From NCBI GenBank assembly GCA_027488845.1, contig JAIYBC010000030.1:124001-188000 (forward strand): a DNA stretch of 64,000 nucleotides. Direction: 5' to 3'. Shown piece by piece: positions 47,765-53,492 of the stretch. The translations under genes and the position numbers were made by a program. The number at the start of each line of letters is the position of its first letter. The first letter of the stretch is position 1. The notes beneath the pieces were generated by a model. The model made no database searches and was not told where the DNA came from. It saw nothing but the letters and a program-made list of their open reading frames with translations. This DNA comes from Verrucomicrobiales bacterium (GTDB lineage Bacteria > Verrucomicrobiota > Verrucomicrobiia > Limisphaerales > UBA9464).

Positions 47765-47840
47765 GGGCGGTTGGCGCAGTGGTTAGCGCAGATGCTTTAC
47801 ACGCATTTGGTCGGGGGTTCGAATCCCTCACCGCCCACCA
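47765..47840 (+). tRNA. tRNA-Val (anticodon UAC)
   Basis: A 76-nt cloverleaf. The acceptor stem is GGGCGGT with ACCGCCC, and discriminator A and an encoded CCA complete the 3' end (47837-47840). The anticodon loop TTTACAC carries TAC at 47798-47800, flanked by the GATGC/GCATT stem. The T-loop GGTTCGAATCC is canonical. It would read GUA/GUG valine codons. It lies 29 bp before the PIG-L gene on the same strand; no integrated element is attached. Confidence 0.97.
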
Positions 47841-47868
47841 ACCGATCCGTCCGATTCCCCGATTCCCC

Positions 47869-48753
47869 ATGCGCATCCTTTGCGTCCATGCCCATTTCGA
47901 CGACTTCGAGTTCGTCGCCGCCGGCACCTTCGAGCGGTTCCGTCGGGTGGCCGGACCCGGGTTTCGGGCGAAGGTCCTGGTCTGCACCGACGGTCGATCG
48001 GGACACCACTTCCGAACCCGCGAGGAGACGGCACGGGTCCGGCTCTCCGAGCAGGCCGCGGCGGCGGAGATCGGCGGATACGAGTTCGAGAGATTGAGCC
48101 GACCGGATGGACGCCCCTTCGGCGAGGCCCGCTTGTTGAGCACCGACCTGCTGGCGGCCCTTTGGAAGGCCATCCGGGACTTCGAACCCGACTACCTGTT
48201 CTGTCCGCCCCTGCCGGAGGATCCCCGTGCGGGCGTCCACCCGGACCACATCACCGTGGCCGAAGCCGTGCGGCGGATCGCCTACATGGTCAACGTGCCG
48301 CACGCCTACCTGGACGAGTACCCGACGGAGGACGAAACGCGGTCCAAATGGGTCAAGACACCCGTGATCCTGAACACCTACGACGGCTACATGGGTGCCG
48401 GGGGAGGTCGTGGACCCGATTTCGCGATCGGGGTTTCGGACGTGTTCGACCAGATCGTGAGGCAGTCCTGGTGCCACCAAAGCCAGATCCGGGAATGGCT
48501 TCCGTGGGTGGGACGGCACGAGATGGAACCTCCGGCGGACTTGGCCGGCTGGGAGGCGGCGTTGAGGGGAAGGTTCCGGCGTCAGCGGCTGGGACTGGGC
48601 CTCGGCGAGGGTGAACCTGTCGAGGTCTTCGCACTCACGCGTTGGGGCGAAACCGTCCCGCGCGAGGTGCTGGAAAGAGACTTTCCGGGCCTGAAATGGA
48701 TCGAAACCTTCCCGGTGTCTCCAACGTCTCCCGCTGGCCGAGAAGGACTTTGA
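47869..48753 (+). CDS. PIG-L family deacetylase (LmbE-like)
   Basis: A 294-residue protein from the ATG at 47869; longer frames overlap the tRNA. It has the family metal site VHAHFDDFEF near 6-15 (the usual AHPDDxE with Phe for Pro) and the downstream HPDH of GVHPDHITVAEAVRR. The motif CTDGRSGHH follows the first strand. Zn-dependent LmbE-like enzymes deacetylate GlcNAc-linked lipids, mycothiol or bacillithiol precursors, or act in glycan processing. The genomic context (tRNA before, polysaccharide export after) does not define the substrate. Confidence 0.88.
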   Translation: MRILCVHAHFDDFEFVAAGTFERFRRVAGPGFRAKVLVCTDGRSGHHFRTREETARVRLSEQAAAAEIGGYEFERLSRPDGRPFGEARLLSTDLLAALWKAIRDFEPDYLFCPPLPEDPRAGVHPDHITVAEAVRRIAYMVNVPHAYLDEYPTEDETRSKWVKTPVILNTYDGYMGAGGGRGPDFAIGVSDVFDQIVRQSWCHQSQIREWLPWVGRHEMEPPADLAGWEAALRGRFRRQRLGLGLGEGEPVEVFALTRWGETVPREVLERDFPGLKWIETFPVSPTSPAGREGL

Positions 48754-48912: not shown

Positions 48913-50214
48913 ATGAAAAACCTCATCCCCGCCGCGAGTTTCCTGACCTTGGGTGCTGCCGGCATTGCCCTATCCACCGCCGCCCAAGCGCAGGAAGGTA
49001 AGCCTTGGGTCCTCCGCGCGGGCCTGTCTGGTTTCTACAACGACAACGTTTACACCCGCTCTGACATCCCGAAGCAGGACAGCTTCGGGTTCGAGGTCAC
49101 TCCTGGGTTCAGCATCAACCATCCGATCAACGATGGTCAGACCACGCTGAGCTTCTCGTATGACTACCTCCTCCGGTACTTCGCGGATCGCGAGAAGAAC
49201 ATCGATCACAACCATCTGGTGGATGCCCGTCTGACCCACCAGTTCAACGCGAACAACCAGTTGGCCGTTTACGACAACTTCGCCCAGGCCCAAGAGCCGC
49301 AGCAGTTGGGTGCGCTCGGTGGTGGTGTCGCCCAGCTGCTCCGCGCTGAAGGCACCAACTTCCGCAATATCGTCGGCGCCGATTGGACCTCGCAGCTCAG
49401 CGAGCGCTGGAGCTCGGTCCTGAGCGTCCGTAACAACCTCTTCCGTTTCGACGATCCCCAGTTCAAGTCTTCCTTGGACCGCGTCGAGTACTACCCGTCG
49501 CTCAACCTCCGCTACCTGTTGACCCCGACGACTTCCGTCGGTGTGTTCTACCAGTACGGCGTGGTGGACTTCGACGGCAGTGGCGCGAATGTCGGTATCG
49601 TCCGCGATTACACCAGCCACTTCATCGCCGCTACGATCGATCACGACTTCTCCCCGAACCTGAAGGCCTCGCTCCGCGCCGGTATCCAGGTCAACGACTT
49701 CGAAGACATCGTTGGAACGGTCGAGCAGGACGGCGTCGCCCCCTACATCGACGGCATGCTGACTTGGAACTTTGCCGAGAACTCCTCGGTGACCGGCGGT
49801 ATCCGCCACCAGGTCAACGTGACCGACGTCAACATCACCGGACTGCTCGGTGGTGCCGCTGCGAACGATCCGATTCGCGGCAGCGCGGCGACCACCGCCC
49901 GCCTGACGGTACAGCACTCCTTCACCCAGAAGTTGGTGGCCAGCGTCTCCGGTATCTACCAGATGGGCACCTTCATTGGCGGTGGAACGATCACCTCCGA
50001 CGCCTTCGGCAATCCGATTCCGGCCACCAAGGTCGACGGAGCCGCCGACAGCTACGCCTCCGTGGATGCGAACCTCGCCTATCGGATCACCGAGAATCTC
50101 GTTGGTCGCGTCGGCTACGCCCACGATCGCGTCGATTCCGACCTCGACTTCGCCGGAGATCTGCGCGTGTTCTCCCGCAACCGCGTGTACCTCGGTGTGA
50201 ACTTCACCTACTGA
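48913..50214 (+). CDS. Outer-membrane beta-barrel protein of an exopolysaccharide locus
   Basis: A 433-residue protein with a cleaved signal peptide (MKNLIPAASFLTLGAAGIALSTAAQAQ, in part). The remainder is a series of about 18-20 amphipathic strands (for example LSFSYDYLLRYFAD, YPSLNLRYLLTPTTSVGVFY, VGRVGYAHDRVDS) and ends YLGVNFTY with a C-terminal aromatic. It resembles the BBP2_2-type barrels found next to Wzz and Wza genes in exopolysaccharide loci. It could be a secretion pore or a structural partner of the Wza-like protein. Codon choice is more GC-balanced than that of its neighbours, as in a highly expressed envelope protein. Confidence 0.85.
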   Translation: MKNLIPAASFLTLGAAGIALSTAAQAQEGKPWVLRAGLSGFYNDNVYTRSDIPKQDSFGFEVTPGFSINHPINDGQTTLSFSYDYLLRYFADREKNIDHNHLVDARLTHQFNANNQLAVYDNFAQAQEPQQLGALGGGVAQLLRAEGTNFRNIVGADWTSQLSERWSSVLSVRNNLFRFDDPQFKSSLDRVEYYPSLNLRYLLTPTTSVGVFYQYGVVDFDGSGANVGIVRDYTSHFIAATIDHDFSPNLKASLRAGIQVNDFEDIVGTVEQDGVAPYIDGMLTWNFAENSSVTGGIRHQVNVTDVNITGLLGGAAANDPIRGSAATTARLTVQHSFTQKLVASVSGIYQMGTFIGGGTITSDAFGNPIPATKVDGAADSYASVDANLAYRITENLVGRVGYAHDRVDSDLDFAGDLRVFSRNRVYLGVNFTY

Positions 50215-50233: not shown

Positions 50234-50270
50234 AGGAGGCTGGAACAACCATTCTAGCCTCCTTTTTTTT
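50234..50270 (+). terminator. Terminator/attenuator between the barrel gene and the Wzz/BY-kinase gene
   Basis: AGGAGGCT (50234-50241) pairs with AGCCTCCT (50256-50263), a perfect 8-bp stem with a 14-nt loop, followed by eight T at 50263-50270. The kinase ATG at 50275 is only 4 bp after the T-run, so the terminator ends where a ribosome-binding site should be. The stem itself contains AGGAGG, an exact Shine-Dalgarno match. Confidence 0.75.
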
Positions 50271-50274
50271 GCCC

Positions 50275-52446
50275 ATGGAAGTCACGAAAGCACCCCAGGT
50301 CAGCGACTCGAAGCTGCACTTCCTGGATTACTGGCGGATCATCCGTATCCGCAAGGCAGTGATCTTGGCCGTGTTCCTTCTGGTGGTCATCACGGTCACG
50401 GTGATCACCCATTTCCAGCCGGAGACGTTCGCGTCGACCGCGCGGATGAAGGTGGAAAAGGACTCGCCGTTGACGCAGCTGCTCTCAGGCGGCGCGTCGA
50501 TGAACCCGGCTTTCGACCAGTACTTCCTCCAGACCGAGTTCCAGGTCATCCGTTCGCCCAAGATCCTTTACCAGGTGATCCGCGAACTGAAGCTGGGTCA
50601 GCGTTATGCCCAGCGTGAAAAGCTGAACACCGAGATCCCGATCTTGGACGCCTACGAGGCCTTGTCCCGGGAGCTGGACATCACCCAGTACAAGAACACG
50701 GCCATCATCGAGATCACCGCGTTCAACGAGGACCGTGAACTGGCGGCCCAGGTCGCCAACAAGATCGCCGACGTCTACCGCAAGTACCGCACCGAGGGAC
50801 GGTCGGGTCGCAGCGATCAGGCGTGGGTGGCGTTGACCAACAAGTTGGCGGGTTACGAGATGGACGTGGCCAAGGCCCGCGAGTTGGTCGACAAGCTCCG
50901 TATCGACCTGAAGGTTCCCGAAGAAATCGCGGAATCCGGCCAGGTCCAAGGCTTGTCCGCCCAGGAGGTCATGCGCCTTCAGTCGGTGATCCAAGAATAC
51001 CAGACCCGAGTCACCCGCAATAGCCGCCTGCTGGAACAGTTGGCGCAACTCAAGGGCGACAGCCTGAGGAACGCCCTCGTGGTCGCCAACTCCACGACGG
51101 AGCTCAACACGCTGATCGGTCAGCTGAACTACGCTGTCCGTCAGAAAGCCAGCCTGAACCCGGATTTCGGTGCCGACCATCCCGAGGTGCTGAAGTGGAA
51201 CATCCAGGTTACCAAACTCGAGGAGCAGTTGGAGTCCACGATCCGCGGTATCCTGGACGGCATGAAGTCCACCTTGGAAGCCGACAAGGCGGCCATGGAG
51301 AACCAGAAGACCTTCCTCAGCGATGCGATCGCCAAGAATTCGCAGGATGCCCAGCGGTTCCGGCCTTACATCGTGGCCAAGAACGAGTTCGAAAGCGCCA
51401 GAAAGATTCGTGACGGCATCAAGATCCGTGTCGCCCAAGAAGACATCGACCGCGATCTCGGAAACAATTCCCCCGTCGAAGTCATCAATGAGGCCCTTCC
51501 GGGCACCAACCCGGTCAAGCCGAAGAAGGTCGTCAACATCGCCGCCGGTGTGGTGTTCGGACTCGTCTTGGGCGTGGGTCTCGCGTTCTTCATCGAGTAC
51601 TTGGATACGTCCGTGAAGACCATCGATGACGTCGAGCAGGCTTTGCAGGCGCCGGTTCTGGGCGTCATCCCGCAGAACGTCGGAAGCCTCATGTCGGAGG
51701 GCCCGGACAGTCCGCATGCGGAAGCCTATCGAGTGCTGCGAACAAACCTGCTTTTCTCGCGCAAGGATCCGAACTGGCGCACGGCCACGGTCGTCTCCGG
51801 TGGCGCTGGCGAAGGCAAGTCCACCACGATCTTCAACCTGGCGACCGTATTTGCACAGAACGGAAGCCGTGTTCTGATCGTCGATTCCGACCTTCGTCGC
51901 CCGAGCCTCCACAAGATCCTCAACGTCGCCAACAACCTGGGCTTGACCAACTACCTGCTGGGTCAGAACAAGCTCGAGGAGGTCATCCAGACGACTCCGG
52001 TTCCGTCCCTGGACTTCCTGCCTTCCGGCAAGCTTCCGAGCAGCTCGATCGGCATCCTGAACTCGGCCCGCATGAAGGAGTTCATCGCCGAGGCCAAGAG
52101 CCGCTACGACTTCGTGTTCTTCGATTCGCCTCCGATCATGGGCGTCAGCGACGCCTCGATTCTGGCGAGCGAGGTCGACATGGCATTCCTCGTCGTGCAG
52201 TACCGCAAGTACCCGCAGCAGATGACCATCCGCGCCAAGCAGATGGTCGAGAAGGTGGGCGGACGTCTGCTGGGTGTCGTGCTGAACAACATCAACATCA
52301 GCCAGGACAGCTACTACTACTACTACAGCGGCTACTACTACGACTACTACTCGAAGAACGAGGACAGCAAGCCGTCCTCCGAGGCCAAGTCCTCCAAGCG
52401 TGGCGAGGCGAAGAAGCCTGCTGCGGACTCCGAGAAGAAATACTGA
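50275..52446 (+). CDS. Polysaccharide co-polymerase fused to a BY-kinase (Wzc-like)
   Basis: A 723-residue inner-membrane protein. The Wzz region begins with a helix near 30-50 (AVILAVFLLVVITVTVITH), then a periplasmic coiled coil (about 150-400), then a second membrane helix near 425-445 (IAAGVVFGLVLGVGLAFFI). The cytoplasmic tyrosine-kinase domain has Walker A GGAGEGKS at 509-516, VLIVDSDLRRP (Walker A') and FVFFDSPP (Walker B). The C-terminus is tyrosine-rich (SYYYYYSGYYYDYY and a final KKY), the autophosphorylation cluster. It sets polysaccharide chain length and is regulated by phosphorylation. The start at 50275 follows a terminator. Confidence 0.96.
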   Translation: MEVTKAPQVSDSKLHFLDYWRIIRIRKAVILAVFLLVVITVTVITHFQPETFASTARMKVEKDSPLTQLLSGGASMNPAFDQYFLQTEFQVIRSPKILYQVIRELKLGQRYAQREKLNTEIPILDAYEALSRELDITQYKNTAIIEITAFNEDRELAAQVANKIADVYRKYRTEGRSGRSDQAWVALTNKLAGYEMDVAKARELVDKLRIDLKVPEEIAESGQVQGLSAQEVMRLQSVIQEYQTRVTRNSRLLEQLAQLKGDSLRNALVVANSTTELNTLIGQLNYAVRQKASLNPDFGADHPEVLKWNIQVTKLEEQLESTIRGILDGMKSTLEADKAAMENQKTFLSDAIAKNSQDAQRFRPYIVAKNEFESARKIRDGIKIRVAQEDIDRDLGNNSPVEVINEALPGTNPVKPKKVVNIAAGVVFGLVLGVGLAFFIEYLDTSVKTIDDVEQALQAPVLGVIPQNVGSLMSEGPDSPHAEAYRVLRTNLLFSRKDPNWRTATVVSGGAGEGKSTTIFNLATVFAQNGSRVLIVDSDLRRPSLHKILNVANNLGLTNYLLGQNKLEEVIQTTPVPSLDFLPSGKLPSSSIGILNSARMKEFIAEAKSRYDFVFFDSPPIMGVSDASILASEVDMAFLVVQYRKYPQQMTIRAKQMVEKVGGRLLGVVLNNINISQDSYYYYYSGYYYDYYSKNEDSKPSSEAKSSKRGEAKKPAADSEKKY

Positions 52447-52482
52447 TTGGCCGTCGAGAGCCCACCCCACAGAGTTCCCGAA

Positions 52483-53103
52483 ATGAGCAGCCGTTCCGTT
52501 TGTCTCCTCCGTGTTCTCGGAGCCGTGTCCGCCTTGTTCCTGGCGACCGGTTGCGAGACGCCCGTCTCCGGTTCCCGCACAAACGCGACCGCGGCGGCTC
52601 CGACCAATCTCATCAGCATCGACAAGGTCTACGTGGGGGATCAGATCCGGGTGGTGATGGACGCTCCGGCGCCCATCCCGCCCACCGAGACCACCGTGCC
52701 CGAGAGCGGTACGATCACCATCCACATGGGTGAGCGCATCCAAGTTGCCGGTCGCAGGACCGAGGAGATCGCTCAGGAGATCACCCAGATCTTCACCGAG
52801 AAGAAGCAGGTGTTTCGTCCCGGTCGACTCACGGTGACCGTTCAGGTCTTCGGTCGGTCGGTCTCCGTCGGTGGGGACGTCCGCAACACCGGTTCCTTCC
52901 AGTTCGAGGGCGGCATGACGGTTCTGAAGGCGATCAACCGCGCCGGCGGCTTCACCGAATGGGCGGACCGCACCGAGGTGCAAGTTACCCGGCTCAATGG
53001 GCAACAGCTCACCGTCGATTGCAAAGCTGCCGTCCGGAAGGCGAACCTCGACCTCCCGCTGTTCCCTGGCGACCGGATCCACGTTCCCCGCAAGAGCTTC
53101 TGA
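52483..53103 (+). CDS. Wza-like polysaccharide export lipoprotein
   Basis: A 206-residue lipoprotein from the ATG at 52483. The signal peptide ends in the lipobox LATGC, so Cys27 is lipidated. A Poly_export domain (about 45-130: VGDQIRVVM, ETTVPESGTITI) and an SLBB-type segment (about 135-205: VSVGGDVRNTGSFQFEGG, TVLKAINRAGGFTEWADR) follow, ending FPGDRIHVPRKSF. It would form or line the outer-membrane export channel. It is short compared with E. coli Wza (379 residues), so it lacks the large ring domains and may depend on the barrel protein at 48913. It is coupled to the FHA gene by a 1-bp overlap. Confidence 0.92.
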   Translation: MSSRSVCLLRVLGAVSALFLATGCETPVSGSRTNATAAAPTNLISIDKVYVGDQIRVVMDAPAPIPPTETTVPESGTITIHMGERIQVAGRRTEEIAQEITQIFTEKKQVFRPGRLTVTVQVFGRSVSVGGDVRNTGSFQFEGGMTVLKAINRAGGFTEWADRTEVQVTRLNGQQLTVDCKAAVRKANLDLPLFPGDRIHVPRKSF

Positions 53104-53492
53104 TGATCGAGCTGCGGCTTCTCTCCGGGAACCGCAAGGGGGAGTCGGTTTCTGCCCACCCTCCGTTGACCATCGGCAGGTCCCCTTCCTCCGGACTTTG
53201 CCTGCCCGAGCCCGGGGTCTGGGATTCCCATGCGCGGATCGGCTGCGCCGAAGATGGACGCCTGCATCTGACGGCAATGGGTGAGGGCGCTGTCTCCATC
53301 GATTCCAAGCCTGTTCGCGATGCCGTCCTCCGTTCCGGGGACCGCATCGGGTTGGGGTCCGTCACCTTGGAGTTCCGGCTCGCGCCCGCCCATCAACCCG
53401 GCCTTCACGGTCCCGAGCGTGTGCTGTGGTCCATGCTGGTCGCGGCGGTGTTGCTCCAGTTGGCCCTTTTGGGACTGCTAGCCGGCGCCTGA
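53103..53492 (+). CDS. FHA-domain membrane protein in the exopolysaccharide export operon
   Basis: A 129-residue protein that starts within the stop codon of the Wza-like gene (TGATG). An FHA-type domain occupies about 1-95: IELRLLSGNRKGESV, the GR of TIGRSPSS at 25-26, and the conserved Ser-His of WDSHARI at 42-43. A single C-terminal transmembrane helix (LWSMLVAAVLLQLALLGLLAGA, in part) anchors it, with the FHA side probably cytoplasmic. FHA domains bind phosphothreonine peptides. Its partner is unknown; a role in sensing the phosphorylation state of the export machine is an inference. Confidence 0.8.
   Translation: MIELRLLSGNRKGESVSAHPPLTIGRSPSSGLCLPEPGVWDSHARIGCAEDGRLHLTAMGEGAVSIDSKPVRDAVLRSGDRIGLGSVTLEFRLAPAHQPGLHGPERVLWSMLVAAVLLQLALLGLLAGA

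Follow-up and report, generated by a model that had tools for sequence, protein, structure and literature searches.

Comparative analysis of a 64,000-nucleotide stretch of DNA from a Verrucomicrobiales bacterium (order Limisphaerales; contig JAIYBC010000030.1, positions 124,001 to 188,000 of the forward strand; the whole stretch is hereafter called the window) indicates that the last gene of a polysaccharide-export operon encodes a conserved membrane protein with a remodelled forkhead-associated (FHA) domain, and that an unexpected RNA element, a terminator-like hairpin, stands beside it in the same operon (Table 1). An earlier note on this DNA, made from the letters alone, had placed here a bacterial tyrosine kinase (BY-kinase), a short Wza-like lipoprotein of the outer-membrane polysaccharide export (OPX) type and an FHA gene overlapping the lipoprotein stop in TGATG, and all three were recovered at those positions with scores above the curated cut-offs, the FHA ATG sharing a nucleotide with the OPX stop codon TGA. 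The note had further proposed a second, phosphothreonine-based signal layered on polysaccharide export, and this part is not supported, since the Ser and the Asn of the phosphopeptide site are gone in the homologues. A structural or regulatory role in the exporter is a likelier function for the FHA protein than the reading of phosphorylated threonines. Our preferred reading, to which we give a probability of about 0.5, is that it acts as a small, phospho-independent membrane adaptor of envelope-glycan export, a role, including its partner and its effect, that we infer from fold, residues and gene linkage.

Linkage to the exporter operon and the remodelled FHA domain

The linkage of the FHA gene to the exporter was assessed from the kinase side, by scanning genomes with an alignment of 12 kinases and taking the best 80 of 572 matches, a sample that leans to close kinases. 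Three of the 80 loci are cut by contig ends (17, 69 and 103 nt after the OPX or kinase gene), and in 76 of the 77 loci with sufficient room the FHA gene lies directly behind the OPX gene, which bears out its conservation at the end of Wza/Wzc-type operons in Verrucomicrobiota, the point that the earlier note had singled out for checking. The OPX gene was not called by our filter in two of these 76 loci (L228 and L234); in the 74 loci with both genes called, the OPX and FHA profile matches are separated by no more than 15 nt in 53 cases and never by more than 126 nt. When loci were chosen by their FHA gene instead, the OPX gene adjoined it in all 43 family loci, and the gene order porin, kinase, OPX, FHA was found in all 20 loci sampled outside that family but within the same taxonomic order, two of which have the porin or the kinase gene cut by a contig end. 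Chance neighbourhood, or a bias from the FHA-based choice of loci, is ruled out by the kinase-based sample. The kinase-based loci are labelled Limisphaerales, Pedosphaera, Verrucomicrobia subdivision 3 and Akkermansia, the last label being probably wrong. One locus labelled Candidatus Omnitrophota (L276) also carries the kinase operon; its FHA protein falls among sequences of this order, and the bin is probably mislabelled.

A search with the FHA alignment at E 1e-6 picked up 286 of the 293 genomes from the order, the weaker hits probably reflecting ordinary FHA domains. In a sample of 237 genomes from the class, 58 matched at 1e-12, of which 42 belong to the order and 16 to other orders, the latter scoring no better than 4.8e-20, and in a phylum sample of 240 genomes only the window's own genome and G542 (9.9e-21) passed 1e-20; in G542 the key ligand-site position is, by eye, occupied by Ala instead of Trp. 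The source genome contains three BY-kinases above the cut-off (one on C51, two on C65) and three FHA genes (on C21, on C33 and in the window), only the last of which adjoins a BY-kinase. Among the open-licence papers listed by the literature searches, none describes an FHA protein encoded in a polysaccharide-export operon of this kind.

The AlphaFold model of the protein, built with 44 homologues, has a mean pLDDT of 92.8 and consists of an FHA beta sandwich and one helix, which makes the description as a membrane FHA protein in the earlier note a reasonable one. Among solved structures, OdhI and GarA match best with their FHA domains (Foldseek E 4.5e-9), giving root-mean-square deviations of 1.4-1.5 over 92-94 residues and, for GarA, a Z score of 16.8 (VIA; 94 residues, deviation 1.4). 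Canonical FHA domains bind the phosphate through an Arg and a Ser, with a Gly and a His holding the site together, and reach the residues beside the phosphothreonine through an Asn (PMC6468809). For the analysis of this site, 172 best matches were reduced to 136 distinct sequences, namely 117 from the operon, six from beside lptF/G, 11 from other orders and two paralogues, with L162-L165 of other orders left out because they matched by the FHA domain alone or weakly. The phosphate-contacting Ser is missing from every one of the 117 operon homologues, its place being taken by Trp or, in four proteins that all come from genus g3 (the genus of G006 and G008), by Ala, and Trp40 is the sixth most conserved column of the alignment. 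Equally absent throughout is the Asn of the beta6-beta7 loop (position 62), where 86 homologues have Ala, while the Gly is present in all 117 and the structural His in 115, with Gln in the other two. Loss of phosphopeptide-binding residues in close relatives, which the earlier note had named as evidence against its own proposal, was thus observed for two of the contacts. By comparison, both other FHA proteins of the source genome keep the Ser and read STNGT or STNGS by eye, and among the 11 FHA relatives from other orders seven have the Ser, six the Asn and none the Trp, so that Trp at the Ser position marks this FHA family. FHA genes beside a Ser/Thr kinase gene do occur in another order, at L154:1882-4040 and L159:2642-5589, the two such cases examined; the membrane FHA proteins there are related to the present one and extend further at the C-terminus. 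Another FHA gene of the source genome (L078:5236-6625) has the canonical residues and a C-terminal hydrophobic stretch, and the product of its neighbour ends in a PEP-CTERM-like tail, as judged by eye.

The predicted C-terminal helix ends one residue before the C-terminus. Over 123 sequences the polar fraction by weight is 0.00 at positions 108-118 and 120-123 as against 0.99 at position 119, which is Gln or Glu, and Glu105 and Trp109 are conserved too. Conservation along the helix follows a 100-degree period, with values as high in 40 of 5000 shuffles, and the predicted buried Gln/Glu119 on the conserved face points to contact with another helix.

Proposed role and competing explanations

We propose that the FHA domain is cytoplasmic and would no longer read phosphothreonine, and that its remodelled face, together with the helix, may bind a partner, which could be the kinase/co-polymerase, the protein itself or a component shared with lipopolysaccharide (LPS) export. 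The protein would thereby set exporter assembly or the chain length of the polymer, in the manner of RmpD on Wzc or of the SctD collar. Wzc has been proposed to cycle between an octamer and phosphorylated monomers (PMC8285477), a cycle that would offer an RmpD-like protein a point of action. All three genes after the porin (kinase, OPX and FHA) lie behind the conserved terminator-like hairpin, and their expression therefore probably depends on read-through. If the adaptor role is true, BY-kinase exporters throughout the order would have an extra component with a testable signature, Trp40 and the buried Gln/Glu119, in a machine whose known structures are those of Wzc and Wza.

Several observations weigh against this proposal. 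Within the ligand site, the phosphate-contacting Arg26 is largely kept (Arg in 110, Gln in four and Lys in three of the 117 operon homologues), so that the site may still bind an anion, and 13 of the 117 have an Asn at position 61, one position off the canonical place. In the helix, the Gln/Glu is shared by eight of the 11 FHA relatives of other orders and may therefore serve self-association. Among 16 FHA-poor genomes in which absences were looked for, G008, G013 and probably G006 keep the porin, kinase and OPX genes without the FHA gene, which can thus be lost: none was found behind the OPX gene in the 826 nt (G008) and about 1000 nt (G013) read, in 4289 nt of L227 in the case of G008, or in the approximately 365 nt before the contig end in G006, and the best matches to the FHA model anywhere in these three genomes are 6.5e-9, 2.6e-9 and 8.1e-9. 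The number of kinase columns changing together with this loss is zero, in a test without power, as random triples average 0.06. Finally, two families of the order, f7 and f24, keep the FHA protein without a detectable BY-kinase.

In the remaining FHA-poor genomes the contig ends too early (G079, G105, G140 and G157, and a kinase fragment in G083), or no kinase other than a diverged one was found, or no kinase at all. Translation of the contig end in G105 reveals the beginning of an FHA domain. Ten loci with a diverged kinase (L178, L180-L187 and L209) have no FHA gene in the stretch covered, and in the diverged kinase operons of the order at L180-L187 the OPX gene precedes the kinase gene.

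A less likely alternative, for which the gene context in f7 and f24 speaks, is that the FHA protein functions in LPS export or in general maintenance of the envelope and rides with the polysaccharide operon merely for co-expression. None of 11 genomes of these families has a BY-kinase at E 1e-40, the TIGR01007 cut-off is passed by none of six (all six giving weaker ATPase matches) as compared to six of six comparison genomes, and an OPX domain was detected in one of ten. In all six f7 and f24 loci (L168, L169, L194-L197) the FHA gene lies within 1 nt of the lptF/G stop codon or overlaps it and is followed by accA, as checked with Pfam for three lptF/G and two accA neighbours, and Trp occupies the Ser position in all six proteins. 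The BY-kinase, on these gene contents, cannot be the sole partner of the FHA protein. However, outside these families the FHA gene is tied to the kinase operon, and accA gave no match in the single matched lptF/G locus of the source genome (L210), so that we regard a purely LPS-related or housekeeping function as doubtful. A tree of every second family row gave a backbone without resolution on which gene context came first.

It appears distinctly unlikely that the FHA domain still binds phosphothreonine, produced on the kinase or another export protein by a Ser/Thr kinase of the genome, with Trp and other residues replacing the Ser and the Asn. The retained fold, Gly-Arg and His would be in keeping with such binding, and 14 Pkinase matches in the genome agree with the expectation of the earlier note that a Thr kinase is encoded elsewhere, but both contact residues are lost without exception in the operon homologues, whereas the two other FHA proteins of the genome keep them, and within the operon no gene was recognised as encoding a Ser/Thr kinase. 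It is easy to annotate an FHA gene as a phosphothreonine reader; the present case shows that such an annotation can fail at the residue level even where gene linkage is very strong. Very improbable, finally, is recognition of phosphotyrosine, with Arg26 holding the phosphate and Trp40 stacking on the ring of a phosphorylated tyrosine in the BY-kinase tail, because the Trp is also present in all six proteins from lineages without a detectable BY-kinase and the tail is unchanged in three FHA-less kinases, even though the Arg is kept, an aromatic residue has been gained and the tail motif YYYY-SGY is nearly invariant over the order.

A terminator-like hairpin between the porin and kinase genes

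The hairpin in the window starts 19 nt after the porin stop codon and ends 11 nt before the kinase ATG. A stem followed by a T-run was detected in 101 of 104 distinct intergenic regions at this junction compared to nine of 520 mononucleotide shuffles, and two of the three misses also resemble, by eye, a stem with a T-run. In 99 of the 101 the start codon follows the stem at a distance of 6-21 nt, and the stem follows the porin stop at 14-56 nt, with a median of 22. The same rule applied to 70-nt stretches at other junctions gave no hairpin behind the kinase gene (0/103), between the OPX and FHA genes (0/102) or behind the FHA gene (0/102).

For alignment, 65 dissimilar hairpins out of 99 (101 found) were available, of which 49 were first chosen as more regular before all 65 were recounted, with the same picture in both sets. 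In the 65, 88.9% of the cells are paired as compared to 39.0-64.7% when the strands are slid, a share that is biased upwards since all rows were picked for having a stem. Changes on both sides of a pair occur in 58 cells, compared to 27.2 (standard deviation 3.9) in shuffles, none of 500 being as high. Pairs showing such changes number 7 vs 5.9, with 118 of 500 shuffles as high, which is unremarkable, as is the count of additional pair types (61 of 500). A model built from the 49 chosen hairpins (R1) had its best match in the porin-kinase region in six of seven kinase-bearing genomes and its third-best there in G098; G000, G008 and G059 had contributed sequences to the model and G144 is near-identical to G059, which leaves three independent cases, namely G070 and G119, where the region ranked first, and G098, where it ranked third. 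As the scores of 25-28 bits in G098 and G119 are no higher than the best scores in kinase-less genomes (24.6-28.2 bits), R1 alone cannot recognise diverged hairpins. The hairpin had no Rfam match up to E 5, and the R1 genome scans did not support its being a genome-wide repeat. A plain consensus scan, uninformative on its own, gave three terminator-like sites vs 3.3 in shuffles and no promoter-like site vs 0.8.

There is no room for a promoter serving only the kinase unless it overlaps the stem or the porin gene, and read-through of the hairpin therefore seems needed. In Escherichia coli, almost full repression is reported for a terminator located several base pairs after a gene (PMC4824070), and by analogy this suggests that the hairpin may be linked to translation of the porin, at longer distances than in the E. 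coli case. The hairpin offers a direct route to testing the balance of porin and kinase levels in polysaccharide export. As a wider and tentative possibility, the FHA protein might represent a new class of FHA-derived membrane module, in which the phosphate site was rebuilt around a Trp and which would be a phospho-independent subunit common to capsule-type and LPS-type exporters across the order, in conjunction with a conserved terminator-like RNA that divides the exporter operon, so that its kinase, OPX and FHA products would be made only after read-through, possibly coupled to porin translation.

Operon layout and comparison with known systems

Table 1. Features of the exporter operon, in window coordinates
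Feature	Position	Strand	Remarks
BBP2-type beta-barrel porin gene, first of the operon	48913..50214	+	PF10082 47.9 bits (cut-off 23.7); precedes the kinase in relatives
Terminator-like hairpin, 12-bp stem, then T-run to 50271	50234..50263	+	No Rfam match
BY-kinase/polysaccharide co-polymerase gene, ATG at 50275	50275..52446	+	TIGR01007 174.9 bits (cut-off 108.05); Wzz and GNVR domains
Tyrosine-rich tail codons of the BY-kinase, residues 680-692	52312..52350	+	Tyr 681-684 and 687 in 119/119 aligned distinct kinases
Short OPX (Wza-like) lipoprotein gene, TGA 53101-53103	52447..53103	+	SLBB 54.3 bits, Poly_export 34.8 bits
FHA-fold membrane protein gene, 129 aa, ATG 53103-53105	53103..53492	+	FHA 32.4 bits (cut-off 20.7)
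Trp40 codon, place of the phosphate-contacting Ser	53220..53222	+	Trp 113, Ala 4, Ser 0 of 117
C-terminal helix codons, residues 102-128	53406..53486	+	Helix in AlphaFold model; Gln119 codon 53457-53459

Judged by its conserved gene order, the operon starts one gene before the kinase, with the beta-barrel porin. The start of the OPX gene in Table 1 is a TTG and gives the longest frame; the ATG at 52483 is likelier, the lipobox having been judged by eye. The SLBB match of the OPX protein ends at residue 188-213 of 218, no C-terminal spanning segment is present, and the barrel gene lies in synteny. Upstream of the porin are a tRNA-Val gene and then a PIG-L type deacetylase gene (window 47765-48753), the latter being retained at this place by loci from the same genus as the window. 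The PIG-L gene (47869-48753) was rejected as a member of the operon, as matches of at least 59% identity occur only in loci of that genus, together with one of 28% in L289.

The closest structural relatives of the FHA protein are GarA and OdhI, soluble phosphothreonine switches of Actinomycetota. The window protein shares their FHA fold and keeps the Gly-Arg and the structural His, but has WDSH and EGA in the alignment where GarA has SRRH and LNGT, and a membrane helix follows its FHA domain. With the intrinsic terminators inside operons of the LoaP and RfaH type the hairpin has in common a G+C-rich stem and a U-run within an operon (PMC12691694); those systems involve antitermination or attenuation. 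The short OPX protein without a spanning segment and with a barrel gene in synteny resembles EpsY/EpsX and WzaX with its partner in Myxococcus (PMC9601211, PMC9603273), although the terms FHA and Verrucomicrobi are absent from the main texts of these two papers.

An FHA fold working without phosphothreonine has been described in afadin (PMC9355967), and one with an eroded phosphothreonine site within an export machine in SctD/YscD/PrgH of type III secretion, where PrgH keeps the fold and changing the proposed phosphothreonine-contacting residues was reported to be without effect on secretion (PMC3635987). In the model of the cytoplasmic domain of SctD/YscD (PF16697) the window protein scores 27.5 vs a cut-off of 33.2 and its relative in L196 scores 43.6; SctD differs in the periplasmic domains that follow its membrane helix, as compared to none in the window protein. 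RmpD of Klebsiella has 49-58 residues and a single helix; it binds Wzc and renders the chain length of the polymer more uniform (PMC10294653). While RmpD has an N-terminal helix, a basic C-terminal part and no FHA fold, and binding to Wzc is, of the two proteins, shown for RmpD alone, both are small membrane proteins that have a single helix and a cytoplasmic portion, predicted in the case of the FHA protein, and are tied to a Wzc-type exporter.

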